A DNA stretch of 64,000 nt. It comes from Salipiger bermudensis (GTDB lineage Bacteria > Pseudomonadota > Alphaproteobacteria > Rhodobacterales > Rhodobacteraceae). This document shows positions 32,037-40,044 of this stretch, piece by piece. The first letter of the stretch is position 1. Every line of letters starts with the position of its first letter. The stretch spans positions 62,001-126,000 of the forward strand of contig NZ_JAHVIA010000009.1 in NCBI RefSeq assembly GCF_019801965.1, in the 5' to 3' direction. The notes below the pieces were generated by a model. That model did no database searches, was not told the DNA's origin, and saw nothing but the letters and a program-made list of their open reading frames with translations. A program made the position numbers and the translations under genes.

Positions 32037-32720
32037 TCAGCTGTCGACGATCACCTCGTCGATGCCGCCATCCACCGACTGGCAGGCGCTCAGCACGCGC
32101 CCCGCGAGATGGGTGGCGACGTAGCTTGCATGGAAGCGTGAGGGCGCCTTGAGGTGCAGCCGGCCCCCTGCCCTGCCGCCGCGCTCCAGCGCGGCGATCC
32201 AGGCGCCGTAGAGCCCCGGATCCTCGGCATGCAGCAGCGCCTTGGCGAGGGTCCACTCGCTGCCATCGCTGAGGTCCGGCGCGGCGACCCGGCCCTTGAC
32301 CGGCAGCGGCACGATCTTTTCCGGTGCCTCCTCGGTCCCCGAGAGCCGGTGCGCCAGATCGGGCCCGACATCGGCCCAGCGGTCACGGCTGTCCTCGAGG
32401 ATGCGCTCGATCCCGAGCGCGTATTCGCTGACCCGTCCGCGCGCGCCTTGGCGCTTGACCACCAGCCAGCCCATGGCGCGCAGCTTGGCCATCTGCCGCT
32501 TGACCGTGCGCTCGTCGACCTGCCAGAGCCGGGCGATCTCGCGCTGGCCCACGGCAAGCTCGTCGCGGCCCCAGTTGTAGCGGGCGGTGATCAGTGTCAT
32601 CAGGCGCAGAACGAGACGCTGCTGGCCCTTCTCCTGGGCGAGCGCGTAGGCTCCCATCACGGTGAGCAGGTCGTATTTGAAAGCCGCGGCATTGCGCCCG
32701 ACCGGTTTCTTGGCAAGCAT
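32037..32720 (-). CDS. Plasmid replication initiator with DnaA domain I-like C-terminus
   Basis: A 227-residue protein with a winged-helix DNA-binding N-terminal part (DLLTVMGAYALAQEKGQQRLVLRLM, then VGQREIARLWQVDERTVKRQMAKLRAMGWLVVKRQG) and a C-terminal domain (about 155-227: WTLAKALLHAEDPGLYGAWI, LHLKAPSRFHASYVATHL) that follows the pattern of DnaA domain I (W...l...WI..L....L.L.AP.RF..dwv). This is the make-up of the DnaA-like replicon class of Rhodobacterales plasmids. It is divergent from parAB. ATG 32720 is preferred over 32780 as it starts the conserved part. It is smaller than chromosomal DnaA and lacks the AAA+ module. Confidence 0.75.
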   Translation of the reverse strand: MLAKKPVGRNAAAFKYDLLTVMGAYALAQEKGQQRLVLRLMTLITARYNWGRDELAVGQREIARLWQVDERTVKRQMAKLRAMGWLVVKRQGARGRVSEYALGIERILEDSRDRWADVGPDLAHRLSGTEEAPEKIVPLPVKGRVAAPDLSDGSEWTLAKALLHAEDPGLYGAWIAALERGGRAGGRLHLKAPSRFHASYVATHLAGRVLSACQSVDGGIDEVIVDS

Positions 32721-33199
32721 CTGCCGCCCTCGCCTTGAGCCCGGATCCCCGGGTCTGCCTCTGCTCCGGGCTCGTGTCATGGCCCGTGATGGTAAAGGCG
32801 CCGTTAACTCAGCGCTCTTTCCAGCTCGTCACTCATTTGCGTCCTGATATCCGATTCTGTCAAGGCTTCCGGCATTTGCCTCCCGGCCCCCTACCCTTTT
32901 TCGAATGAAAAATTGGGTATCTAGGTATTGGGGGACAGGCAGGGTGACCCCTATTCAGACAAAAATGTCCCCCAATATCTGGCGGTACGCTGCCTGCTGT
33001 CCCCCAATATTTCTGCTCTCTCCTCAAACGCTTGCCGAATCGGGGGGCGAAGCGGTCGGGGCCATGGGCGCCTTGGGAAATGGACGTTTTGCAGAACAAC
33101 CAGAATTGCCGTCCCGACGATAATAGATTTTGTCAAATCTGGCAAATCAGCGTAAATAACGAAGCAGAGCAGATTAACGTCCCCGGGTTTCGGGCAATC
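32721..33199. other. Putative replication origin region
   Basis: The 480-bp gap between initiator and parA contains an AT-rich inverted repeat (TTTTTC-GAAT-GAAAAA, 32897-32912) and three copies of TATTGGGGGACA: plus strand 32926-32937, minus strand 32966-32977 and 32998-33009. These look like iterons for the adjacent initiator beside an unwinding element. No DnaA box was seen. Origin activity is inferred from position and structure. Confidence 0.55.
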
Positions 33200-33246
33200 T
33201 GTCCCCACGGGGACAGCCAACCGGAGCCGCTGTCCCCGCGGGGACA
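33200..33246. repeat. Two 16-bp palindromes upstream of parA
   Basis: TGTCCCCACGGGGACA at 33200-33215 and TGTCCCCGCGGGGACA at 33231-33246 are perfect 7-bp inverted arms with a 2-bp centre, 31 bp apart. The second ends 28 bp before the parA start, where ParA or ParB binding could control the operon. Confidence 0.8.
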
Positions 33247-33274
33247 GTGCAGAGGGATACAGACAGGAGAGCCC

Positions 33275-34579
33275 ATGTTCACCCATGACGACCTCGCGCA
33301 GATGCAGGCGCAATCCCTCAAGATGCAAAGCTGGATCCGGCAGCAGACCTTTTCTCCCGAGCGCGAGAAGCGGCTCAGGCGGTTCTCGAGCTGGGAGGTG
33401 GCCGAGCTGATCCTGCAGGTCAACCAGTCGACCCTGCGGGGCCGGCTCGCCGCCGACCCTTCCCTGCCCCAGGGGCTCGTCGAGGAGGATGGCCGCCAGC
33501 GCTGGTACGCGCTCGAGGAGATCAACGAAATCCGCCGCAAGCTCAAGGTCAACCGCAAGAGCATGATGCCGCCGCGGCCCGCCGGCAAGCGCGCCTTCCG
33601 CGTGGCGATCTCCAACTTCAAGGGCGGCGCCGGCAAGTCGACCGTGGCGCTGCATTTCGCCCATGCCGCGGCGCTCGATGGCTACCGGGTGCTCTGCGTC
33701 GACTTCGATCCGCAGGCGACGCTGTCGCATTCGATGGGGCTCAGCGACATCACCGAGGAGTTCACCGTCTGGGGCATCATGGCGCGAGACCTGATCCGCG
33801 AGACCGACCGTATGAACGCCGCCATGCGCGGCGCCGAGAGCGGCTCCGCCCTGCCCCAGCGCAAGCTGCCCGAGGCGATCACCGGCATGGGGCTACGCGA
33901 TCTGCGGGTGACCGATTTCATCAAGCCCACCAGCTGGCCCACCATCGACGTCATCCCCTCCTGCGCCAACGCCGCATTCGTCGAGTTCGCCTCGGCTCAG
34001 TACCGCCACCTCAATCCCGAGTGGTCGTTCTTCGCCGCGGTGTCGCGCTATCTCGATGCCCTGCCCCCGGATGCCTATGACCTCGTGATCTTCGATTGCC
34101 CGCCGGCCATCGGCTACCAGAGCATGAACGCGGTCTTCGCCGCCGACATGCTCTATATCCCCTCCGGCCCCGGCTACTGGGAATACGATTCCACCACCTC
34201 CTTCATCGGCCAGCTCTCCGAAGCGCTCGCCGATCTGAGCGGCTTCGAGGGGGTTGTCCCCGCGGGGACACTGCAATTGCCCAAGGTCTTCCAGGACGTC
34301 CGCTTCCTGCTGACCCGCTACGAGCCGGGCAACGAGCTGCACCGCGCGATGCGTTCAGCTTTCCAGAAGGTCTGGGAAGACAGGGTAACGGAGAACGCCA
34401 TCGAGATGACCCGCGCGGTCGAACAGTCGGGCCGCTTCCTGAGCTCGATCTACGAGATCGACTATCGTGAGATGACCCGCGAGACCTGGCGCCGGGCGCG
34501 CGCCTCTTTCGATCGCGCCTACGAGGAATTCCGCGGCCACGTGTTGACCGCATGGGACAAGCTGGAGGATGAGGCATGA
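33275..34579 (+). CDS. parA: ParA-family partitioning ATPase
   Basis: Type Ia plasmid-segregation ATPase of 434 residues. An N-terminal DNA-binding region (about 36-95; FSSWEVAELILQVNQSTLRGRL... a MerR-like helix) precedes the ATPase with deviant Walker A KGGAGKST near residue 116-123, the switch I DFDPQATLS and Walker B-like LVIFDCPPAIG. AGGAG precedes ATG 33275; the frame is open further upstream but would include both palindromes. It overlaps parB by 4 bp. A palindrome copy lies within its coding sequence at 34255. Confidence 0.92.
   Translation: MFTHDDLAQMQAQSLKMQSWIRQQTFSPEREKRLRRFSSWEVAELILQVNQSTLRGRLAADPSLPQGLVEEDGRQRWYALEEINEIRRKLKVNRKSMMPPRPAGKRAFRVAISNFKGGAGKSTVALHFAHAAALDGYRVLCVDFDPQATLSHSMGLSDITEEFTVWGIMARDLIRETDRMNAAMRGAESGSALPQRKLPEAITGMGLRDLRVTDFIKPTSWPTIDVIPSCANAAFVEFASAQYRHLNPEWSFFAAVSRYLDALPPDAYDLVIFDCPPAIGYQSMNAVFAADMLYIPSGPGYWEYDSTTSFIGQLSEALADLSGFEGVVPAGTLQLPKVFQDVRFLLTRYEPGNELHRAMRSAFQKVWEDRVTENAIEMTRAVEQSGRFLSSIYEIDYREMTRETWRRARASFDRAYEEFRGHVLTAWDKLEDEA
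34255..34270. repeat. 16-bp palindrome inside parA
   Basis: TGTCCCCGCGGGGACA is perfect and is translated as part of VVPAGT. Confidence 0.8.
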
Positions 34580-35670
34580 GCAAGCGACGCGGTTTTGACA
34601 TCGATTTTCCCGGTAACGCAGACGGCGTCTATACCGGGGCAAAGCCGGCCGAAGCGCCCGAGCCAGCCCGCCCCGAGGGGCGGCGCGGGCCGATGGCGGC
34701 GGCGATCTCCGAAAATGCCGACGCGCTGCGCCAGCGCGCCGAGGCCGAGCGCGCGATCCGGGAAGAGAATGACCGGCTCGCGCATGAGCATGTGCGGCTG
34801 AAGCGCGCCGGGCTGATCACCGACCTGATCCCGCTCGATGCCATCCGCATCGAGAAGCTGACCCGCGATCGCGGCCCGGGCGCCGATCCCGATATCGGCG
34901 AGCTGAAAGACTCTATTCAAGCGATTGGTCTCTCCAACCCGATCCAGGTCGAGCCCTCTGGCGACGGCTACGAGCTGGTCCAGGGCTTCCGCCGCCTGCG
35001 CGCCTATCGCGAGCTCTACGCCGAAACCGGCGATGAGGCCTTCGCCAAGATCCCCGCCGGGCTGATCGCCACCGGCGCCGCGCTCGAGCAGCTCTATCGC
35101 CGCATGGTCGACGAAAACCTCGTCCGCCGCGATATCTCCTTCGCCGAGATGGCGGTGCTGGCGCTGCGCTATGCCGATGATCCCGGCACCTCGGCCGAGG
35201 ATCTGAGCTCGGCCATCGACGTGCTCTTCGCCTCGGCCGGCCGGCAGAAGCGCAGCTACATCCGGCATTTCGGCTCGCTGATCGAACAGGTCGGCGACGC
35301 GCTGCAGCACCCTCAGGCGATCTCGCGCAATCTCGGGCTCGACCTGAACAAGCGGCTCGCGTCGGAGGAGGGCTTCGAGGCCCGGCTGCGCGCGGCGCTC
35401 GAGGGGCTTGGCGAGGTGTCGCCGGATTACGAGGCGGCGGTGCTTCAGGATCTTCTGAAAGCCGCCCCGAAAGCGCCTAAGCCGCGCGCCGGATCGGCGC
35501 GGAATGCCGCCGCCAAGACCACGCTGCGCTGCACTGTCCCCGCGGGGACAGTCCGCTGCGCGGCGCGTGACGGCAAGGTCGAGCTGCAGATGGAGCGCGA
35601 TTTCTCGAGCATCGACCGGCACCGGCTCGAGGCCGCGGTGACCGCATTCATGGCCGCGCTCGACGATTAG
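34576..35670 (+). CDS. parB: ParB-family centromere-binding protein
   Basis: A 364-residue ParB homologue: a variable N-terminal arm with a coiled-coil-like stretch (SENADALRQRAEAERAIREENDRLAHEHVRLK), the ParB/Srx domain (about 85-170; LIPLDAIRIEKLTRDRG, DIGELKDSIQAIGLSNPIQV, YELVQGFRRLRAY with the CTP-binding box altered from GERRxRA to GFRRLRA) and a central HTH region (about 200-290) before a C-terminal dimerisation part. ATGA overlap with parA gives coupled synthesis. It probably binds the TGTCCCC palindromes, one of which is in its own gene at 35535. Confidence 0.9.
   Translation: MSKRRGFDIDFPGNADGVYTGAKPAEAPEPARPEGRRGPMAAAISENADALRQRAEAERAIREENDRLAHEHVRLKRAGLITDLIPLDAIRIEKLTRDRGPGADPDIGELKDSIQAIGLSNPIQVEPSGDGYELVQGFRRLRAYRELYAETGDEAFAKIPAGLIATGAALEQLYRRMVDENLVRRDISFAEMAVLALRYADDPGTSAEDLSSAIDVLFASAGRQKRSYIRHFGSLIEQVGDALQHPQAISRNLGLDLNKRLASEEGFEARLRAALEGLGEVSPDYEAAVLQDLLKAAPKAPKPRAGSARNAAAKTTLRCTVPAGTVRCAARDGKVELQMERDFSSIDRHRLEAAVTAFMAALDD
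35535..35550. repeat. 16-bp palindrome inside parB
   Basis: A perfect copy of TGTCCCCGCGGGGACA; symmetry extends to 20 bp (35533-35552). It encodes TVPAGT near the ParB C-terminus. Confidence 0.8.
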
Positions 35671-35769
35671 GGCAGGGCGAAAATCCGCAGGACAGCTGGC
35701 GGCGCCACGGGAAACCGGGCGCCGCTTCTTTGTCTCTAGGGGGCAGCGTAGAGCCTGATCTTTCTCGCA

Positions 35770-36425
35770 TGTCCCCGCGGGGACAGCATCCGCAACCGAG
35801 CCCGATCGTGGCGCCGATGGCGCGTCCTTTCCTCGCCAAGATCTATGCTCCACATGGCAAAGCTGCGCTTGTTGCTACTGGGACACTTTGCCGAGCGAAC
35901 GAAAGGTGGAGGCTGAAACTCAGGCTCTCACCCGATCAAAGCGTGCTGTCCCCGCGGGGACAGGGCTGCGGATCTGGCCGGGGTGGCCGGGAAATACACG
36001 GCTCCGGTTGCGCGAAGATCAGCGTGTCCCCGTGGGGACAGCCTTTCCAGAGTAGGGGCGAGGGTGCAGTCTCTTGGACCGTGACAGCGCGTTGTCCCCG
36101 AGGGGACACTCCGCCAAGAGAGCGAGAGATGCGGGCTAAACGCAGGCTGTCACCCGGACAAAGTGTGCTGTCCCCACGGGGACAGACCTGCGGATCGGGC
36201 AGGGTGGCCGCGGCAACACATGGCCCCGGTTGCCCTAAGATCCGTGTGTCCCCGCGGGGACAACGTTTCCAGCCGGGGCCAAGGGAGCGGTCTCTTGGCC
36301 GGCGACAGCATGTTGTCCCCGCGGGGACAGCGCCAAGCCCGCTCCGTATTTTGTGCGCGTCACCGAGCGGGAGCGGTGCAGGATGATCCGCCCGTCGCGA
36401 AGAATGACCTGTCCCCGTGGGGACA
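35770..36425. repeat. Array of eight 16-bp palindromes (putative parS/centromere)
   Basis: Perfect copies of TGTCCCC-NN-GGGGACA start at 35770, 35947, 36025, 36093, 36169, 36247, 36314 and 36410. Both 7-bp arms are invariant. The central pair is GC, GC, GT, GA, AC, GC, GC and GT respectively. Spacing is mostly 67-96 bp, close to seven to nine helical turns. No gene lies in 35671-36660. The array directly follows parB, as expected for a partition centromere. Confidence 0.85.
35918..36337. repeat. Tandem duplication of about 222 bp within the palindrome array
   Basis: Unit 1 (35918-36116) and unit 2 (36140-36337) align over their length, each with three palindromes offset by 221-222 bp. Shared landmarks outside the palindromes include the segments CTGCGGATC, CCGGTTGC, TTTCCAG, GTCTCTTGG, CGACAGC/TGACAGC and CGCCAAG. 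The spacer sequence has diverged while the palindrome arms have not. Confidence 0.75.
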
Positions 36426-36660: not shown

Positions 36661-37638
36661 TCACTTGCAGACGGGCAGGGGGCGGTCGGGGGCCGGGGTC
36701 AGGGAGGCGCGCCAGCGGTCGATGACGGGCTGCAGCGTGCGCTTCGGCCAGAACCTCGGCGCCCCGATTGCGCTCATGCAGGCGGCGTTCCAGTAGAGAC
36801 CGGCCTGCGCCAGCGACCGGCCGGCCTTGGCCGCGTTTGCCACCGCCTCGATATCGCGCCCCTCGGGGTAGATGTAGAGCGTCGTCGGGTTGCCCTCGAC
36901 GCGCGACAGGATCTCCTGCGAGACGGCGGGCGACCATGTGGTGCAGCCGTTGCTTCGGCCGCCGGTGTAGTTCACCAGGCTGCCATAGGGGACGTAGCCC
37001 TCGTCATCCGCATGCGGGCTCTGCGGGTTCTTGTAGCGGCACTGCCATTTCAGGAACACCGCCGGGTGGCCGCCGATGGCGCGCTCGCGGGCGTTCTCGG
37101 TCTCGCCGGTGCCGTCGAACAGCAGGAAGGTGCGGTAGAACGGCGTGCGCTTGCCGGATTGCGAATAGTAGCCCTTGAACGAGGTCCGGGTCTCGGCAGT
37201 GAGATAGTTGCCGCCCATGGTCAGCTTCGAGCCCTCGGCATTGCTGAAGTTCTTGGCGCATTGCCGGCCGTTGGAGAAATCATGCCCGCTGAGCTTGCGC
37301 CCGTTGCCGTAGCCGGAGGAGACCGCGCGGAAGGTCTGGCTCTGTTCGCAGATCAGGTAGAACCGGCTGCCGGGCGCGCCGGAGGGCGCGGTGCTCGGGC
37401 GGGTGGCATCCATCGCGAGGTAGCACGGGTTTGTCACCTTGCCGCGTGAGAGGTTGGCGCGGTAGAGCGCCCGCGCCCGCTGCAGCACGACCGGGGCGAT
37501 CTGGCCGTCGCCGGTGCCGACGTGACGGTGAAGCCATCCCGGGATCTCGGGGCCGGGCGAGGCGGCGGCCGCGGCCAGTGGCGCGGCGAGGGCCAGGACG
37601 GTCATGGCGGTCGTGGCGAGACGGCGGACGGACTGCAT
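36661..37638 (-). CDS. Exported L,D-transpeptidase catalytic-domain (YkuD_2) protein
   Basis: A 325-residue protein with a signal peptide (about 1-26, ending AAAAASPG). The body fits murein L,D-transpeptidase catalytic-domain proteins: NPCYLAMDATRPS, then the SGYGNGRKLSGHDFSN segment with a conserved His, and GRSNGCTTWSP carrying the presumed catalytic Cys (residue about 235) in the S-x-G-C motif. It probably acts on peptidoglycan in the periplasm, but enzymatic activity of this group is little tested. It is single and lies just beyond the palindrome array. Confidence 0.82.
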   Translation of the reverse strand: MQSVRRLATTAMTVLALAAPLAAAAASPGPEIPGWLHRHVGTGDGQIAPVVLQRARALYRANLSRGKVTNPCYLAMDATRPSTAPSGAPGSRFYLICEQSQTFRAVSSGYGNGRKLSGHDFSNGRQCAKNFSNAEGSKLTMGGNYLTAETRTSFKGYYSQSGKRTPFYRTFLLFDGTGETENARERAIGGHPAVFLKWQCRYKNPQSPHADDEGYVPYGSLVNYTGGRSNGCTTWSPAVSQEILSRVEGNPTTLYIYPEGRDIEAVANAAKAGRSLAQAGLYWNAACMSAIGAPRFWPKRTLQPVIDRWRASLTPAPDRPLPVCK

Positions 37639-37794
37639 CGGGGATCTCCTGCCTGACGTTTTTTACAGTCATAACACGAGTAGACCCCCGTTTGCGCAAT
37701 CAAATATTGTTTCCATTGCACCGCGTCGCTTGCGGGCGACCGGGCGCCGCATCCTTCGCTTGCGTTACAGAGCGACTCGCCTATGGTGCCCGAG

Positions 37795-37918
37795 TTCTCA
37801 GGGCGGGGTGAAATTCCCCACCGGCGGTGACAGCCCGCGAGCGCCCTTCCAAGCGAAGGGGTCTAGCAGATCCGGTGGAATTCCGGGGCCGACGGTGAAA
37901 GTCCGGATGGAAGAGACG
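37795..37918 (+). ncRNA. FMN riboswitch (RFN element)
   Basis: The conserved blocks appear in order: TCTCAGGGCGGGGTGAAATT, CCCCACCGGCGGTGACAG, AGCCCGCGAGCGC, CAGATCCGGTGGAATTCCGG, GCCGACGGTGAAAGTCCGGA and TGGAAGAGA. This is a full FMN aptamer. It is followed by about 75 nt before the ribH start, so it should reduce ribH expression when FMN is plentiful. Confidence 0.95.
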
Positions 37919-37993
37919 TATCGTGCCGGGCGTTCGCGCGCCCTGTGCGTTCGAAAGCTCTGGGACCTTTTGTGATCAACGGAGGGTTCCGAA

Positions 37994-38470
37994 ATGACCG
38001 ATCAGACACAGACCCGTATCGCCTTCATCCGCGCGCGCTGGCATGCCGACATCGTCGACCGTGCGCATGAGGGCTTCCTGGCCGAGGCCGCCGACATCCT
38101 GCCCGGCGCCAGCGTCGATGCCTATGACGTGCCCGGCGCGTTCGAGATGCCGCTGCTGGCCAAGCGGCTGGCCGAGACCGGGCGCTACGACGCCGTGGTC
38201 GCCGCGGCCTTCGTTGTCGATGGCGGCATCTATCGCCACGACTTCGTCGCCGACGCGGTGGTGAAGGGGCTGATGGACGCGCAGATGCAGACCGGTGTGC
38301 CGGTGTTCTCCGTCTCGCTGACGCCGCACCACTACCAGGAGACCGAGGTGCACAACGCCTTCTTCACCGAGCATTTCGTCAAGAAGGGCGCCGAGGCGGC
38401 CCACGCCGTGAAGGGCGTGCTCGACATCGTGGTGCCGGCGCGCGCCGAGCTGTCGGTCGTCAACGGCTGA
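37994..38470 (+). CDS. ribH2: 6,7-dimethyl-8-ribityllumazine synthase, RibH2 type
   Basis: Penultimate riboflavin enzyme, joining 5-amino-6-ribitylaminouracil and dihydroxybutanone phosphate. The 158 residues match the Brucella/Rhizobium type II enzyme (decameric RibH2) rather than the icosahedral type: IAFIRARWHADIVDRAHEGF, DVPGAFEMPLLAKRLA, VVDGGIYRHDFVADAVVKG and LTPHHYQETEVHNAFF with the catalytic His. GGAGGG precedes ATG 37994. It is the only riboflavin gene here and is under the FMN riboswitch. A hairpin follows at 38482. Confidence 0.93.
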   Translation: MTDQTQTRIAFIRARWHADIVDRAHEGFLAEAADILPGASVDAYDVPGAFEMPLLAKRLAETGRYDAVVAAAFVVDGGIYRHDFVADAVVKGLMDAQMQTGVPVFSVSLTPHHYQETEVHNAFFTEHFVKKGAEAAHAVKGVLDIVVPARAELSVVNG

Positions 38471-38745: not shown

Positions 38746-38771
38746 TGATAAAGTGCGCATCGGTGTTATCA
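38746..38771. promoter_or_regulatory. Inverted repeat upstream of eryH
   Basis: TGATAA and TTATCA face each other across 14 bp in an AT-rich block, 30 bp before the eryH start. It is a candidate site for EryD or the DeoR-type regulator of the locus. The rest of 38513-38745 holds nothing recognisable. Confidence 0.4.
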
Positions 38772-38800
38772 TGTCTCTCGACGACGGAGGAGACGACTCG

Positions 38801-39586
38801 ATGCCAAGCGTTTGGATCGGCACCAGCTGGAAGATGAACAAGACCCTCGCGGAGGCCCGTGCCTGGGCCGAGGGGCTGGCGGCGGCAGAGCTCGATCCGC
38901 GCATCCAGAGCTTCGTGATCCCGCCCTTCACTGCGGTGCGCGAGGTCAAGGCTGTGCTGGCGGAGATGCCGGTTCTTGTCGGTGCGCAGAATATGCACTG
39001 GGCCGATCAGGGTGCCTGGACCGGCGAGATCTCGGCCCCGATGCTGACCGATTGCGGGCTCGAGATCGTCGAGCTCGGCCATTCCGAGCGCCGCGAGCAT
39101 TTCGGCGAGACCGACGAGACCGTGGGCCTCAAGACCGAAGCAGCGGTGCGCCACGGCCTCGTGCCGCTGATCTGCATCGGCGAGACGCTGGCCGACCGCG
39201 AGGGCGGCCGAGCGGCGGAGGTGCTGGCGCGCGAGGTGCGCGGGGCGCTCTCGAAGCTCTCTGATGCTCAGAAGCAGGCGGAGATCTGGCTGGCCTACGA
39301 GCCGGTCTGGGCGATCGGCGAAAACGGCATCCCCGCCACCGCCGACTATGCCGATGCGCGGCAGGCCGAGATCATCGCCGTTGCCGAGGAGATCCTCGGG
39401 CGCCGCATTCCCTGCCTCTATGGCGGCTCGGTCAACCCGGGCAACTGCGCCGAGCTGATCGCCTGTCCGCATATCGACGGGTTGTTCATCGGGCGCTCGG
39501 CCTGGGACGTGGCCGGCTATCTCGACATTCTCGCGCGTTGCAGCGCGGTGCTGGACTCAAACGTCAAGACGGAGGAATTGACATGA
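38801..39586 (+). CDS. eryH: Triose-phosphate-isomerase-like tetrulose-phosphate isomerase (EryH/TpiA2)
   Basis: A 261-residue TIM barrel with TPI active-site elements: GTSWKMNK (catalytic Lys), [16 protein letters not shown] (His) and [12 protein letters not shown] (Glu), plus YGGSVNPGN for phosphate binding. Its place beside eryI and eryABCD shows it is the second TPI of erythritol catabolism, which isomerises a tetrulose phosphate, not the glycolytic enzyme. GGAGGAG precedes ATG 38801, which also gives the canonical N-terminus, so two earlier in-frame ATGs are rejected. It overlaps eryI by 4 bp. Confidence 0.87.
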
Positions 39587-40044
39587 AGATCGCAGTGGCC
39601 GGCGACAGCGCCGGAGAACCCCTCGCCATCGCGCTGGCCGAGTATCTCGCGCAGAACCCCGATTACGAGGTGGCCGAGATCTCGCGCACCGAGGCCGGGC
39701 CCGACGATTTCTACGCCAACCTGTCGGACCGGGTGGCCTCGCAGGTCAAGGACGGCACCTATGACAAGGCGATCCTGTGCTGCGGCACCGGCATCGGCGT
39801 CTGCCTTGCGGCCAACAAGGTGCCCGGCATCCGCGCGGCGCAGACCCACGACACCTATTCCGCCGGCAAGGCCGCGACCTCCAACAACGCCCATATCATC
39901 ACCATGGGCGCGCGGGTGGTGGGCGTCGAGCTGGCCAAGGACATCGCCGACGCGTTCCTCTCGGCCTCCTTCGATCCGATGGGTAAATCGGCGGGCAACG
40001 TGCGCGCCATCGACGCGGTCGACGCCAAGTATCACACGGCTTAA
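39583..40044 (+). CDS. eryI: RpiB-like erythrose-phosphate isomerase (EryI)
   Basis: A 153-residue RpiB/LacAB-family isomerase: [21 protein letters not shown] at the phosphate site, [22 protein letters not shown] with the catalytic Cys, and [24 protein letters not shown]. In Brucella and Rhizobium the matching gene completes conversion of tetrulose phosphate to D-erythrose-4-phosphate. Its start overlaps the eryH stop (ATGA). Confidence 0.87.

Follow-up and report, generated by a model that had tools for sequence, protein, structure and literature searches.

Twelve perfect copies of the 16-bp palindrome TGTCCCC-NN-GGGGACA lie in and around the parA and parB genes of a 64-kb stretch of Salipiger DNA (the window), which is part of a 206-kb contig (C9) in a draft genome of 4.83 Mb and 32 contigs. 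Comparison of sequences makes them very probable parS sites, the predicted targets of the ParB protein of a type Ia ParABS partition system, and the replicon that bears them is of the DnaA-like I type. The number of copies expected, from 100 dinucleotide-preserving shuffles, is 0. An earlier sequence-only reading of this DNA had listed the twelve starts, the invariance of the arms and a spacer tally of GC seven times, AC twice, GT twice and GA once, all of which proved exact. It had also proposed a multi-site centromere for ParB, some copies of which resemble operators or lie inside genes, a proposal for which comparative evidence now argues.

Palindromes and genes of the par locus

The sites and the genes that they accompany are as follows.

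32037..32723, minus strand: rep, DnaA-like replicase with a helix-turn-helix (HTH) and a DnaA N-terminal-like domain (Pfam HTH_Crp_2, DnaA_N)
32925..33022: probable rep iterons, TATTGGGGGACA (reverse) and two TGTCCCCCAATAT, read directly
33200..33215: parS copy 1, spacer AC, upstream of parA, operator-like
33231..33246: parS copy 2, spacer GC, 31 bp after copy 1, directly ahead of the parA start
33275..34579, plus strand: parA, ParA/SopA-type ATPase with N-terminal HTH region (Pfam AAA_31, 2.7e-24)
34255..34270: parS copy 3, spacer GC, within parA at offset +980, encodes VPAGT
34576..35670, plus strand: parB, with ParB_N CTPase-type domain, HTH with R223 and Q224, and C-terminal domain
35535..35550: parS copy 4, spacer GC, within the 3' part of parB
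35770..35785: parS copy 5, spacer GC, opens the array downstream of parB
35909..36352: tandem duplication of 222 bp, contains copies 6-8 and 9-11
35947..35962: parS copy 6, spacer GC, downstream array
36025..36040: parS copy 7, spacer GT, downstream array
36093..36108: parS copy 8, spacer GA, downstream array
36169..36184: parS copy 9, spacer AC, downstream array
36247..36262: parS copy 10, spacer GC, downstream array
36314..36329: parS copy 11, spacer GC, downstream array
36410..36425: parS copy 12, spacer GT, closes the array

Two copies thus occupy the parA leader, one lies in parA, one in parB, and eight follow parB. No site with only one or two mismatches occurs in the window, and the three matches found at three mismatches correspond to the level expected by chance. 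The tandem duplication provides an internal test of what is conserved: when its halves were aligned, all 42 arm bases were identical, compared with 125 of 178 bases elsewhere (70%; Fisher P = 3.6e-6), while the spacers differed in all three site pairs. This pattern indicates selection on the arms and not on the spacer, and it is consistent with the suggestion in the sequence-only reading that a dimer reads the arms only. A search of the par region with Rfam found no RNA.

The ParA protein matches NCBIfam RepA/SopA partition models and carries a deviant Walker A motif (KGGAGKS) as well as an HTH that was read by eye. Its gene overlaps parB by 4 bp, and this arrangement, an ATPase with an N-terminal HTH in an operon with a large ParB (364 aa), places the locus by sequence among type Ia ParABS systems. 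The ParB_N score, 23.8 bits, falls under the Pfam cut-off; the fold, the HTH and the motifs GFRR (GxRR) and ENLVR (ENxxR), with invariant G137, R139, R140, E180, N181 and R184, assign the protein to the ParB CTPase family, and binding of cytidine triphosphate is predicted. In an AlphaFold model of the window ParB (predicted local distance difference test score, pLDDT, of 80.5), a helix spanning residues 210-217 is followed by one spanning 223-242 that starts at residue 223 and is predicted to be the recognition helix, placed as expected. Foldseek searches with this model returned, as best hits, Noc bound to its binding site (NBS), ParB with cytidine diphosphate (CDP), and KorB, with SopB-DNA matching more weakly; the global template-modelling (TM) scores were low because domain placement is uncertain in the monomer model.

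The replicase scored 20.0 bits against HTH_Crp_2 and 20.1 bits against DnaA_N, both under the curated cut-offs. It is 67-88% identical to the rep genes that occupy the corresponding position in DnaA-like I plasmids, with which the window shares rep-parA-parB synteny and homology. In pMeth_A285, a 285-kb plasmid (L018) that has been classed as DnaA-like I (PMC3910554), the identities to the window proteins are 67% for Rep and 59% for ParB, and the ParB of the DnaA-like II plasmid pDSM14862_d (L029; PMC9025767) is 34% identical to that of the window. With its DnaA-N-like replicase adjoining parAB and its nearest relatives among DnaA-like I plasmids, the replicon is assigned to that type on sequence grounds. 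A RepABC replicon was considered and rejected, as no repC adjoins parAB and the NCBIfam RepA/RepB models score far under cut-off. A second, distant parAB is present in the same genome (G000:C14; L012), with 31% identity in ParA and 36% in ParB, and no TGTCCCC palindrome was found in the 3.8 kb fetched around it.

The probable rep iterons contain the heptamer TGTCCCC, which is also the parS arm, yet they form a separate element, and relatives with CTTCCCC or GTTCCCC as parS arms have the same iterons ahead of rep. Iteron-like repeats TGTCCCCYAATA occur in the window at 32925-33022 and in the rep-parA gaps of relatives (L014-L034); in the clade of the window their heptamer is that of the parS arm, and it is kept even where the parS arms differ. 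A GCGTCC motif is also conserved upstream of both rep and parA.

The genomes compared are drafts, and genes in the fetched loci were called by simple choice of open reading frames. A de novo palindrome search near the parAB genes of plasmid relatives recovered the same element in close relatives at 2 to 18 copies. Across 80 relative loci with sites the median is three copies and most have only two to four, placing the twelve of the window near the top of the range. Sites were found within parA in 62 of these loci, upstream of parA in 48, within parB in 49 and downstream in 54. The parA-internal site is nearly always at offset 977-983, and the ParA peptide that it encodes varies with clade and arms (VPAGT, FPAGK or LPMGK). 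Because the peptide follows the type of site, selection at this position operates on the DNA.

ParB residue 223 and the arm sequence

The arms differ among clades, with TGTCCCC, CTTCCCC, TTTCCCC, CTTACCC and GTTCCCC types, and the differences track the residue with which the predicted recognition helix begins. Among 48 aligned ParB proteins, residue 223 is R in 30 of 30 associated with TGTCCCC, P in 4 of 4 with TTTCCCC, K in 3 of 3 with GTTCCCC, and Y in all of those with CTTCCCC or CTTACCC. No other position of the alignment fully separates the R type from the CTT and TTT types. The next residue, 224, is Q except in the CTTACCC group, in which it is T and base 4 of the arm is A instead of C. 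In the ParB tree, the proteins that pair K with GTTCCCC fall at two separate positions. A further test set comprised 80 named loci, 67 of which were less than 95% identical to the first 48; 63 of these 67 had a perfect palindrome and none contradicted the code, with one of the 63 introducing a new residue, A, on TTTCCCC. R223 therefore appears, from these alignments, to fix the outer arm bases, and a second residue (224) appears to set base 4.

By analogy with known ParABS systems, a ParB dimer would read both TGTCCCC arms of a site, with R223 apparently fixing the outer bases. ParB would load most densely on the eight-copy array downstream of parB, spread from its loading sites and condense into a partition complex that ParA would move. 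The doublet in the parA leader probably allows ParB to help repress parAB, autoregulation being familiar from ParABS work (PMC9178275), and the sites within parA and parB may be old, conserved loading sites. Beyond the replicon, single copies of this site occur on other contigs, and some relatives have it throughout the genome.

Dispersed copies and solo ParB proteins

The sequence-only reading had found no copy elsewhere in the window, which holds, and had suggested a genome-wide count to see whether the 16-mer is confined to this replicon, which it is not. Five further perfect copies are located on four other contigs (C1:628010, C1:798198, C2:548575, C5:65920 and C11:10410), mostly inside called genes; the spacer is GC in four of the five and AA at C5:65920. 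A reversed-pattern control gave 0 in this genome. Scattering of the 16-mer over the chromosome had been named as a sign against a ParB centromere, and in part it does occur, as five isolated copies here and dozens in some relatives. ParB as the reader survives this observation, since arm type and residue 223 covary at the dispersed sites too. One of the five copies, in a gene identified by eye as LpxH-like, recurs in the congener G088; 17 further congeners carry this gene at equal length without the site, and the location of this gene on contigs of more than 4 Mb in two of those congeners indicates that it is chromosomal.

Among 296 genomes of the family, TGTCCCC sites were found in 26 of the 85 that gave a ParB hit (E <= 1e-40) and in 5 of the 211 that gave none (Fisher P = 2e-11), the reversed-pattern control giving 1 in two genomes and 0 elsewhere. 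TGTCCCC and CTTCCCC sites never occurred in one genome (31 and 26 genomes, overlap 0, hypergeometric P = 0.05). One genome, G018, has four CTTCCCC-GC-GGGGAAG sites (C1:944402, C2:781895, C2:884627 and C3:58478) and no DnaA-like I ParB at E <= 1e-40; the sites were perhaps left by a lost plasmid.

The most extensive site sets accompany ParB proteins that have no ParA partner. Actibacterium sp. 188UL27-1 (G063) has 82 genome-wide TGTCCCC copies and G247 has 63, and in both a solo ParB is the only DnaA-like I ParB. Both proteins have R223, and both lack the N-terminal ~80 residues present in the plasmid ParB, a region that bears a nearly invariant RRGPMA block in parA-linked ParB proteins. The parB of G063 (L120:8289-9434) adjoins genes recognized by eye as bacteriochlorophyll genes, and neither parA nor rep lies within 16 kb of it; that of G247 adjoins an unrelated repABC-type operon. 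In Roseobacter ponti, a plasmid parB adjoins bchO, and the G063 locus may be the vestige of a photosynthesis plasmid that went back into the chromosome. A third solo ParB, in G034, is encoded on a 4.15-Mb contig and has Y223; its genome contains 34 CTTCCCC sites (33 with a GC spacer) and 0 of the TGTCCCC type. As the two arm types are never found together, and R223 goes with TGTCCCC in G063 and G247 while Y223 goes with CTTCCCC in G034, the dispersed sites match the residue 223 of the resident protein.

These three genomes share with Noc a ParB relative without a ParA partner and many dispersed sites. Orthology to Noc is not indicated, as the solo proteins score 17.6-36.3 bits against the Noc model (NCBIfam TIGR04285), for which the cut-off is 315, and they branch with DnaA-like I ParB proteins, L120 and L121 forming long branches. 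No Noc-like N-terminal membrane-targeting helix was apparent by eye in their short N-termini. In G034, the dnaA half of the contig holds 25 of 33 sites, a lean that is suggestive only (Kolmogorov-Smirnov, KS, P = 0.04 after collapsing clusters); the origin reference was the contig start, dnaA-dnaN-recF-gyrB, named by eye from translations, because the GC skew is scrambled and too noisy.

In G063, 33 of 42 examined sites are in called genes, and 23 are in the frame that encodes VPAGT. Those in ychF and trmD lie in conserved motifs with no insertion or deletion (indel) relative to solved homologues, and trmD of G267 has also gained a site. Given the codon usage of G063, the chance that VPAGT would be written as the 16-mer is 2.8e-4. 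Together, the lack of indels and this low chance favour point mutation under selection over insertion for the coding copies. No longer conserved unit surrounds the site in G063 or G001. Copies in G247 fall mostly between convergent genes: of the site-bearing gaps, in loci picked for holding sites, 13 are convergent, 5 co-directional and 0 divergent, which argues against promoter regulation. Long terminator hairpins were rejected as an account of the G247 copies, the outer stems being only 0-5 bp.

Alternative explanations, known systems and significance

Several points weigh against assigning the palindromes to ParB: the ParB and DnaA_N scores are under the Pfam cut-offs, five copies sit off the contig of the replicon, 4 of the 67 further loci less than 95% identical to the first set have no perfect palindrome, and the link between residue and arm is a correlation, in part by descent. 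A replicase could in principle be the reader, with the sites serving the origin or rep regulation, as the iterons also contain TGTCCCC. However, the iterons keep this heptamer where the palindrome is CTTCCCC or GTTCCCC, the palindrome type follows ParB, and solo-ParB genomes have dozens of sites with no rep near the gene; Rep was rejected as the palindrome reader, and this alternative is barely credible. It is also very improbable that the palindrome is a mobile repeat, of the repetitive extragenic palindrome (REP) or Rickettsia palindromic element (RPE) kind, that spreads by insertion and is dense at parAB by coincidence. Perfect dispersed copies and a one-sided 12-bp flank common to some copies in G247 would fit such an element, but copies in G063 have no flank in common, the arms follow residue 223, and the absence of indels at three coding sites (ychF, trmD and the LpxH-like gene) led to its rejection and largely refutes it for coding copies.

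The five extra copies in Salipiger could be chance occurrences or relics of earlier plasmid integration, an account that is rather doubtful while retaining some plausibility: they are few, one has the odd AA spacer, and G018 has four CTTCCCC sites with no such ParB at E <= 1e-40. Against this, only 5 of 211 ParB-negative genomes have any copy, mostly one, and four of the five copies share the GC spacer, one being conserved in G088. Alternatively, and as an extension of the parS assignment, dispersed copies may be selected chromosomal ParB sites, which together with a solo ParB would form a Noc-like or nucleoid-organising network, the few in the Salipiger host serving as minor anchors or sinks. 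This is a serious possibility, if short of an even one. The matching arm types of the 82, 63 and 34 sites, the exclusion of TGTCCCC and CTTCCCC from each other's genomes, the indel-free sites in ychF and trmD, the site in a conserved chromosomal gene common to G000 and G088, the writing of VPAGT as the 16-mer in G063, the avoidance of divergent gaps in G247 and the lean toward the dnaA half in G034 all point to it. It is opposed by the apparent lack of a membrane helix in the solo proteins, by the weak depletion of sites near the terminus (ter) and the scrambled skew in G034, and by G064, in which 43 TGTCCCC-NN-GGGGACA copies, with an AT spacer in all listed and an intergenic location in 6 of 6 examined (L169-L174), occur without a DnaA-like I ParB and are unexplained by the model.

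Among characterized systems, the window resembles the type Ia sopABC locus of the F plasmid, with which it shares the parA-parB-array order and 16-bp inverted repeats (PMC6238139; PMC9178275) and whose SopB-DNA structures are among the fold hits of its ParB. F sopC is built from twelve repeats of 43 bp and has ten motifs of 16 bp (PMC6238139), whereas the window copies stand at irregular distances (67-96 bp in the main run) and also occur before parA and in both genes. The DnaA-like I plasmids of Rhodobacterales (pMeth_A285, pPGA1_262) have divergent rep and parAB with homologous proteins, and most have the same palindrome, usually in arrays smaller than that of the window. RK2 KorB and Shigella VirB likewise combine the ParB fold with multiple operators outside or beside partition (PMC12704722; PMC10770331); in contrast, the window ParB sits with parA, and in G247 at least, the dispersed sites that accompany a solo ParB keep away from promoters. 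Noc, reported as confined to Firmicutes, resembles the solo proteins in lacking a ParA partner and in its widely distributed palindromic sites (PMC7383237), and the best fold match of the window ParB was Noc-NBS; the solo proteins differ in being alphaproteobacterial, derived from a plasmid ParB and without a visible membrane helix. Orphan ParB proteins without the ParA motif are widespread (PMC12704722). Plasmid parS copies off the plasmid are also known from the mimics of IncC parS on Salmonella genomic island 1 (SGI1; PMC10954446), but here they are lone 16-mers in housekeeping genes and intergenic gaps and are not gathered on one mobile island. No report of the solo-ParB family or its site sets was found in the literature searched, in which the paper defining the DnaA-like type was not covered. 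The residue code and the dispersed solo-ParB systems appear to be new, and the centromere ordinary in kind.

Other genes of the plasmid contig were noted near the locus. A gene for a secreted L,D-transpeptidase-like (YkuD_2) protein (36661-37638) adjoins the array, a flavin mononucleotide (FMN) riboswitch (104 bits, 37790-37922) stands directly 5' of ribH (lumazine synthase, 37994-38470), and, within a few kb of the par locus, genes for triosephosphate isomerase and an RpiB-type isomerase form a row at 38753-40044 like that of polyol (erythritol-type) catabolic operons.

Taken alone, the array in the window is a well-behaved, F-like multi-site centromere. In a broader proposal, which is tentative and falls somewhat short of probable, a plasmid partition system has repeatedly become chromosome-wide in Rhodobacterales: ParB proteins of the DnaA-like I family would have shed parA, rep and the N-terminal ParA-facing region to be left as solo genes, and selection would have built 34-82 cognate 16-bp sites throughout the genome by point mutation in genes or convergent gaps, giving rise to an independent system whose Noc-like or nucleoid-organising role is hypothetical and drawn by analogy. 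Hosts with the plasmid version, such as this Salipiger, would represent an early stage. The ParB family displays a simple natural specificity code that is testable by point mutants and could predict cross-talk between plasmids. Culturable bacteria that do not belong to Firmicutes, among them Actibacterium sp. 188UL27-1, also have solo ParB proteins with genome-wide sites, and such species offer a direct test of how a partition protein turns chromosome-wide.

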